From positions 1 through 63,393 of the IMG/VR virus record IMGVR_UViG_3300028197_000950: a DNA stretch of 63,393 bases. One strand, written 5' to 3'. The position numbers and the translations under genes were made by a program. The notes under the pieces were generated by a model. The model did no database searches. It saw only the letters and a program-made list of their open reading frames with translations, and was not told the DNA's origin. Positions 5,797 to 58,962 of this stretch are shown piece after piece. This DNA comes from a virus. Numbering within the stretch: the first letter of the stretch is position 1; the number at the start of each line of letters is the position of its first letter.

Positions 5797-6007
5797 AGAG
5801 TATAGAAAAATATATTCTTGGTGTTTAAAACACGGAATAAAAATATACCCTGTAGCTACTGCTAAAGGAGAAAAAAATAAGAACTGTTATATAGAAGTAA
5901 GTGTAAATGGTAAAACAACGTTATCGCCTAAGCATTATGGTGTTAGTGAATTATGGCCTAAAATATTTGAGTTATATAAGTTTTATTATGACAAACGTAC
6001 AAACTAA
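5756..6007 (+). CDS. Hypothetical 83-residue protein
   Basis: Basic protein with a Pro-rich start (KPPPWSKEYRKIYSWCLKHG) and a Trp/Tyr-rich C-terminus (ELWPKIFELYKFYYDKR). The pattern recalls small uncharacterised proteins of marine phages, but no function is known to me. No alternative ATG lies closer to the previous stop. Its last codons overlap the repeated promoter element that serves the next gene. Confidence 0.65.
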   Translation: MIKTVNWKPPPWSKEYRKIYSWCLKHGIKIYPVATAKGEKNKNCYIEVSVNGKTTLSPKHYGVSELWPKIFELYKFYYDKRTN

Positions 6008-57926: not shown

Positions 57927-57970
57927 TAACTGAAATGGTTGTAAGTGAGATTCGATTTCTCACTCAGTTA
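57927..57970 (+). ncRNA. tRNA-like minihelix (acceptor stem plus T-arm)
   Basis: TAACTGA (57927-57933) pairs perfectly with TCAGTTA (57964-57970). Inside, GTGAGA (57945-57950) and TCTCAC (57958-57963) form a 6-bp stem closed by the 7-nt loop TTCGATT, the canonical TTCRANY T-loop. Only 11 nt lie between acceptor 5' strand and T-stem, so no D or anticodon arm exists. It looks like the minimal RNase P/RNase Z substrate or a deleted tRNA. The following bases CAA sit where CCA would be. Confidence 0.5.
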
Positions 57971-58000
57971 CAAACTAATTACGACAATCGTAAGATAATA
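57969..58000 (+). promoter_or_regulatory. Phage promoter element P3
   Basis: TACAAACTAATTACGA (one change from consensus) then 9 bases and GATAATA (57994-58000). Starts 1 nt inside the tRNA-like hairpin. ATG 58010 is 11 nt past GATAAT. Confidence 0.7.
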
Positions 58001-58334: not shown

Positions 58335-58411
58335 ATAAAGAACAGAAACTATTTATAGCAATATTAATTTGCTCAATACTAATAATAATAACAGATGTCG
58401 TTACAAACTAA
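58331..58411 (+). CDS. 26-residue hydrophobic peptide
   Basis: MNKEQKLFIAILICSILIIITDVVTN: a single membrane helix with a short charged N-terminus. ATGA overlap with the previous gene. Its last four codons form part of promoter element P4, a coding-promoter overlap seen again at P6-P8. Confidence 0.5.
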   Translation: MNKEQKLFIAILICSILIIITDVVTN

Positions 58412-58433
58412 ATACGACAAATAATAGATAATA
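58402..58433 (+). promoter_or_regulatory. Phage promoter element P4
   Basis: TACAAACTAAATACGA (58402-58417), 9 bases, GATAATA (58427-58433). ATG 58439 is exactly 7 nt past GATAAT, predicting a leaderless start. Confidence 0.78.
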
Positions 58434-58438
58434 ATAAT

Positions 58439-58657
58439 ATGAATATAAAACAACATAAGCAAAAGCTTAACAAAGAATACAATCAAGCGATTGTCGATAA
58501 AGTACTAAACTCAATGTGGTCAAAGCTCGGTAACGAACTAGATAATGTAATGATCAGTGAAGGTCCTTACTCTGAAACTAATAATGAAATGTTTGACGAT
58601 CAAGATTGTTACGCAGGTATTATACTAAATACTATGAAACTACAATGTGATGAATAA
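58439..58657 (+). CDS. Hypothetical 72-residue protein
   Basis: Helical with an acidic C-terminal half (NNEMFDDQDCYAGIILNTMK). Driven by P4, with no leader. The stop codon is immediately followed by the hammerhead ribozyme. Function unknown. Confidence 0.65.
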   Translation: MNIKQHKQKLNKEYNQAIVDKVLNSMWSKLGNELDNVMISEGPYSETNNEMFDDQDCYAGIILNTMKLQCDE

Positions 58658-58707
58658 GTTTAACTGATGAGAGTTTAATACTCGAAACTACGTAAGTAGT
58701 CTTAAAC
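58658..58707 (+). ncRNA. Hammerhead ribozyme (type I)
   Basis: Full consensus is present. Stem I is GTTTAA (58658-58663) with TTAAAC (58702-58707), six perfect pairs. Core CTGATGA is 58664-58670. Stem II is GAGT/ACTC (58671-58674, 58680-58683) with loop TTAAT. GAA lies at 58684-58686. Stem III is ACTAC/GTAGT (58687-58691, 58696-58700) with the GNRA loop GTAA. C58701 is the cleavage-site base (GTC). The open helix is stem I, hence type I. Predicted cleavage is between 58701 and 58702. The stop codon of the upstream gene ends at 58657, so the ribozyme would separate two mRNAs and give the downstream gene a 5'-OH leader of 24 nt. Activity is predicted, not shown. Confidence 0.88.
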
Positions 58708-58725
58708 AATAATAACTAACTAAAT

Positions 58726-58962
58726 ATGAAAAAAATAATAATAAGTATTGCTGCACTCGGCGCAATGTCATTCACAAGTAATCAATTATATTACTCAACT
58801 CAACTAGTCTATGCTATGAATAACATAGAAGATATGAAAGAGTGGATTATACAAGATGTTGAAAACAATAAAATTGATAGTGTATATGCAGAGTTTTACT
58901 TTGAAACACTAGATGAAACTCACGGTTTTATTAATGACTTTTTCGAGCACGAATGCAAATAA
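58726..58962 (+). CDS. Secreted small protein
   Basis: 78 residues with a signal peptide (MKKIIISIAALGAMSFTSNQ). The mature part is acidic and helical (NNIEDMKEWIIQDVENNKID, then YFETLDETHGFINDFFEHEC). Exported to the periplasm. Its message appears to be separated from the upstream gene by the hammerhead ribozyme, since no promoter element lies between them. Superinfection exclusion or envelope modulation is a guess. Confidence 0.68.
   Translation: MKKIIISIAALGAMSFTSNQLYYSTQLVYAMNNIEDMKEWIIQDVENNKIDSVYAEFYFETLDETHGFINDFFEHECK

Follow-up and report, generated by a model that had tools for sequence, protein, structure and literature searches.

A hammerhead motif between two small phage genes

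The window, by which we mean the whole stretch of DNA analysed, is a 63,393-base IMG/VR virus contig. Two small genes on its plus strand, neither with a PHROGs match, flank a 50-nucleotide motif that lies between them in their sense (stop at 58657, start at 58726). The TAA stop of the 72-amino-acid gene (58655 to 58657) abuts stem I of the motif, and 18 nucleotides separate the motif's end from the next ATG (Table 1). The initial annotation had described an intergenic, sense-strand hammerhead followed by an 18-nucleotide gap and giving a 24-nucleotide leader, and the stop and start codons agree with each of these statements.

A promoter-like repeat, ACAAACTAAATACGA-N9-GATAATA, occurs on the plus strand at 5999, 57320, 57560, 57970, 58403, 58962, 59530, 60214, 60980, and 62243, at most of these sites a short distance upstream of a start codon, and is likely to be a phage promoter or another gene-border signal. 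It is absent from the intergenic gap before 58726, where only a weak resemblance is found between the flanking copies at 58403 and 58962, which bears out the earlier statement that no promoter element lies between the two genes. A sigma-70 scan returned fewer promoter matches than shuffled sequences did. Elsewhere in the same region, a hairpin (AAGTGAGA/TTCTCACT), considered as a candidate second element, is found at 57930-57985 inside a longer inverted repeat, directly before a copy of the promoter-like repeat; in one relative (L204), a hammerhead occupies the apparent counterpart of this hairpin's position.

Table 1. Coordinates of the hammerhead motif, its parts, and the neighboring features in the window
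Feature	Position	Strand	Basis or remark
Nearest upstream copy of promoter-like repeat	58403..58434	+	promoter function inferred
Upstream small gene, 72 aa, no PHROGs match	58439..58657	+	homologues in L129, L167, L153, L149
Type I hammerhead ribozyme, whole motif	58658..58707	+	sequence, descriptor, covariance model, four related contigs
Stem I, 5' strand GTTTAA (3' strand TTAAAC; 6 bp)	58658..58663	+	sequence, MFE fold, model
Catalytic core CTGATGA, C3 to A9	58664..58670	+	position 7 is C in three related copies
Stem II GAGT/ACTC, 4 bp, loop TTAAT	58671..58683	+	sequence
Core GAA, positions 12-14	58684..58686	+	sequence, model
Stem III ACTAC/GTAGT, 5 bp, GTAA (GNRA) loop	58687..58700	+	in relatives, loop bases vary and helix is constant
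Predicted cleavage site, after C17 (58701), 5'-OH at U 58702	58701..58702	+	inferred from hammerhead chemistry, GTC-TTAAAC
Predicted 24-nt 5'-OH leader (stem I 3' strand + AATAATAACTAACTAAAT)	58702..58725	+	sequence
Downstream small gene, 78 aa, no PHROGs match	58726..58962	+	homologues with and without hammerhead in front

The motif reads GTTTAA-CTGATGA-GAGT-TTAAT-ACTC-GAA-ACTAC-GTAA-GTAGT-C-TTAAAC. All core elements are present in order between 58664 and 58701, namely, C3UGANGA9, G12AA14, the A15.1-U16.1 pair, and an NUH triplet (GTC); given this closing pair and the GUC site, the cut is predicted between 58701 and 58702. The topology is that of type I, with stem I open, stems II and III closed by loops, and 6, 4, and 5 perfect pairs, respectively. 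The minimum free energy (MFE) fold of the motif is the hammerhead, and the centroid fold of a 181-nucleotide context lacks stem I. Raw thermodynamic stability is ordinary (z −1.2), so that folding energy alone is uninformative. A descriptor combining the core with the three helices matched both strands of the window at 58658-58707 only.

Among the phage hammerheads in the matches listed, an A before and AA after stem I are conserved, and loop II of this kind recurs; the heptamer TTTAATA (last stem II base, loop, and first returning base) is the second commonest among those with the same stem II length. These features would fit a predicted tertiary contact between stem I and loop II, of the kind that makes cleavage fast at low Mg2+. 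Judged by its sequence, the motif is a genuine type I hammerhead of the active type. A blastn search of the region against named phages gave no match.

Covariance models and Rfam

We built a covariance model on 28 hammerheads from other phages, and it gave a full-length match to the motif (59.7 bits, E 3.7e-15). The contigs behind this set, among the matches listed, were retrieved with a DNA pattern that has core letters in common with the window, and the descriptor used to select the hammerheads requires paired stems. Part of the core agreement and of the pairing frequency within the set is therefore built in, and its pairing percentage is biased. Both-sided changes involving several base-pair types were found in 13 of its 16 pairs, with the motif persisting through widely varying stems. 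Covariation in the set was 0.83, compared with 0.16 in shuffles, and slid controls reached no more than 0.12.

Rfam gave no match in the whole window at gathering thresholds. The best match of a permissive search was to RAGATH-1-hammerhead (RF03152), at 20 bits versus a gathering score of 56.3; this family has the same core order, but its upstream hairpin aligns poorly with the motif. Hammerhead_1 (RF00163) shares the type I topology, in which stems II and III are closed, yet it did not report the motif at gathering, nor at E up to 10 in a 601-nucleotide search, although a member of the wider phage set, the hammerhead at L090:2233-2282, attains its gathering score. Across five hammerhead-rich contigs, Rfam called one of about 30 descriptor-defined hammerheads. 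Its silence at this locus is thus no refutation, and Rfam models are insensitive to phage hammerheads of this sort. The search with Rfam hammerhead models that the initial annotation had proposed thus gave nothing at gathering thresholds, and the phage-derived model gave a strong match. The hammerhead assignment itself is upheld by the full core, the three perfect helices with a GNRA loop on stem III, the single descriptor match, and the score against that model.

Conservation in related contigs

The terminase of the record is 64% identical to that of MW202828.1 (Manatee Spring) and about 46% identical to those of the Flavobacterium elemo phages, with Maribacter, Cellulophaga, and Tenacibaculum phages as the next relatives; the nearest cultured relatives infect Flavobacteriia. 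The same 50-mer is present in four related contigs (L129, L131, L167, and L201). Of the 50 columns, 3 vary across the five copies: two lie in the stem III loop, and the third is core position 7, which hammerheads leave unconstrained. The stems are invariant among these five copies of the clade, as are GAA and the unpaired core outside position 7.

The genes around the 50-mer differ. L129 has homologues of both neighbors, with no more than 45% identity for the downstream one; L167 has a homologue of the upstream gene alone, L131 has one of the downstream gene alone, and L201 has neither. A TAA stands directly before stem I in all four contigs, the gene itself ending a few bases earlier in L201. 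A near-identical 50-mer between differing gene pairs indicates that the element persists as a unit whatever genes surround it. In a sixth relative (L183), stem I, core, and stem II are the same, stem III is different and longer, and the locus is another one.

Two relatives carry the upstream gene without the ribozyme, and there the gene runs straight into another gene. Homologous genes do not need the hammerhead for their expression; elsewhere they come directly after their neighbor. A hammerhead was found in 4 of the 69 GroEL-related loci searched (L129, L131, L167, and L183), many of the others not reaching this region. The 63,393-base record has a single hammerhead, as does each searched relative that carries any; these records may be incomplete. 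None was found in MW202828.1, the nearest known genome by terminase, or in phi38:1, phi46:3, phi13:2, Panino, Gundel_1, and Calle_2.

Hammerheads in culturable phages

The elemo phages, which infect Flavobacterium sp. BAL314, have a homologous stretch in 68 of 68 records. In elemoA_7-9A, the hammerhead lies on the minus strand at MT497017.1:17290-17347 (51.1 bits), where the G of the TAG that ends a 21-codon open reading frame (ORF) is also part of stem I. It resembles the window motif in belonging to a related phage (terminase 46% identical), in lying within a small-gene array, and in having the same core and the same loop, TTAAT; it differs in stems I and III and in its flanking genes, and it is unannotated as a ribozyme. 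An opposite-strand coding sequence, probably spurious, is deposited over the hammerhead in seven of the eight records read at the site (for example, L209:362-469, MT497017.1:17275-17382).

Differences among these eight records are confined to core position 7 and stem II. At this one locus, two fully compensated pairs separate the stem II alleles GACT/AGTC and GGTT/AACC. Such compensation is the change expected for a helix that is kept, a reading supported by the alleles themselves and free of descriptor-selection bias. A shuffle control (82/500) is weak here because there are only five distinct rows. In elemoF_6-3D (L215) and elemoE_10-3D (L217), stem II is GACT/AACC, with two mismatches, and this allele resembles a recombinant of the two compensated ones.

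A further hammerhead is present in Cellulophaga phage phi19:3 (host Cellulophaga baltica #19) at KC821608.1:21769-21817 on the minus strand (44.7 bits to the model). It lies between two annotated genes, gp051 and gp050, and the 5' strand of stem I ends with the TAA that is deposited as the stop codon of gp051. As in the elemo case, the phage is related to that of the window; the stem sequences differ.

Placement and stem I in the wider phage set

A pattern scan of IMG/VR yielded at least 120 contig stretches, in which gene context was assigned with a simple ORF caller. Among the matches listed, 180 distinct hammerheads were examined; 146 were intergenic, of which 124 had the sense of the next gene, and the median distance to its start was 23.5 nucleotides. 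In every contig with two or more hammerheads (43 of 43 among the matches listed), they were codirectional. Of the 162 hammerheads with enough flank in the matches listed, 134 were preceded by an ORF of 60 codons or more whose end was nearby. A stop codon fell at −13 to +1 of the core in 125 of these 162 (77%) versus 114 of 3,480 positions taken at random from the same contigs (3%), again among the matches listed, where 77 stop codons overlapped stem I and 17 overlapped the core. This placement could reflect compact phage genomes or a coupling to translation.

Stem I was also specific to the genome. For the matches listed, mismatch between stems I within a genome was 0.24 versus 0.52±0.025 in shuffles (35 contigs), and the corresponding values for stem III were 0.49 versus 0.54±0.03. 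Neighboring hammerheads could cross-pair over all 6 bp in 37 of 73 cases versus 4.4% between genomes (same matches). Duplication of whole ribozymes is not favored as the cause, because stem III lacks such likeness.

Proposed role and alternative explanations

We consider it probable that the motif acts as a sense-strand type I hammerhead that cuts a polycistronic phage message cotranscriptionally within a small-gene array. The transcript would run through both genes from an upstream start, for which the promoter-like repeat at 58403 is the probable site. Once the polymerase had passed about 58710, the RNA would fold and cut itself in the cell at the predicted site. The message of the 72-amino-acid gene would retain the ribozyme body, which would form a structured 3' end bearing a 2',3'-cyclic phosphate, and that of the 78-amino-acid gene would receive the 24-nucleotide 5'-OH leader, both ends being those expected from hammerhead chemistry. 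The useful consequence would probably be independent stability and translation of the two pieces; whether the 5'-OH end protected or exposed the downstream message would depend on host nucleases. A function at the RNA level, under selection, is supported by comparative evidence from sense orientation, fold conservation, and the stop-codon placement rule. That the clade varies only at permissive positions and that the elemo alleles are compensated indicates selection for the fold. A broader reading, to which we give little weight, is a general gene-border system in which a ribosome on the last codons would block folding, cleavage would depend on translation of the upstream gene, and the uniform stem I would give the processed mRNAs compatible ends.

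The cut might instead be a by-product, the hammerheads being selfish or hitchhiking cassettes at gene borders that are tolerated because they are harmless there. Such an origin would suit the patchy presence in relatives, the 50-mer shared by different gene pairs, the ribozyme-less relatives in which the same genes directly adjoin, and the natural elemo alleles with two stem II mismatches. We nevertheless regard it as unlikely, since the variation within the clade and the compensated elemo stem II point to selection on the fold, and since the strand bias and the stop-codon placement bias among the matches listed are strong.

Less probable still is that the cleavage ends themselves matter, with the pieces between two hammerheads of one genome being religated or circularized by the ribozyme or a ligase through their matching ends, the 3' strand of stem I in front and its 5' strand behind. 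The within-genome likeness of stem I, which stem III lacks, and the frequent cross-pairing of neighbors in the matches listed are what such joining would use. The window, however, holds a single hammerhead; Perreault et al. sought spliced and circular products and found none (PMC3088659); and the uniformity of stem I could also come from tertiary contacts with loop II or from a minimal 6-bp stem changing more slowly.

That the element is a transcription terminator, a promoter, or a plain 3' stabilizing hairpin merely resembling a hammerhead appears very improbable: the intergenic position and the two hairpins would suit it, but the unpaired core (apart from position 7) and GAA are invariant in all copies of the clade, there is no U-run, a terminator scan was empty at the site, and covariation tracks the three-way junction. 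A chance match to the hammerhead consensus is practically negligible, for although the short pattern CTGATGA..GAAA is by itself not significant (about one expected per such window), the full descriptor had 0 matches in 20 Mb of random sequence (first-order Markov, window's composition), and conservation in four other contigs already refutes it.

Relation to known hammerheads

Perreault et al. 2011 (PMC3088659) reported prophage genomes in which multiple hammerheads flank genes singly or in short blocks, proposed that long phage transcripts are divided by them into operon- or gene-length mRNAs, and showed that an Agrobacterium array cleaves both in vitro and in Escherichia coli. The intergenic cutting of mRNA, for which the initial annotation knew of no description, is therefore not a new idea. 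A 2017 review (PMC6155905) again notes the link to phages and treats what prokaryotic hammerheads do as an open question. The 2011 arrays share with the window the core, the placement around genes, and the proposed transcript-cutting role; they differ in having several hammerheads per genome, as against one copy per record in a Flavobacteriia-type phage clade.

What seems new is the stop-codon placement rule, the genome-specific stem I, and the culturable phages with natural stem II variants. Neither the rule nor the specificity of stem I was found in the passages of PMC3088659 consulted, a paper from which the phrase "stop codon" is absent, and other literature may hold them. The location of hammerheads relative to stop codons and their clade-wide conservation are documented here. 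With related hammerheads in culturable phages, the locus and its relatives form a clean test case for the role of prokaryotic hammerheads; the elemo alleles with intact and mismatched stem II, in the same host, would let the ribozyme's purpose be tested. Separately, the IMG/VR record behind L090 (L205-L206) is a 39.8-kb contig with 14 matches to the hammerhead model, all on one strand.
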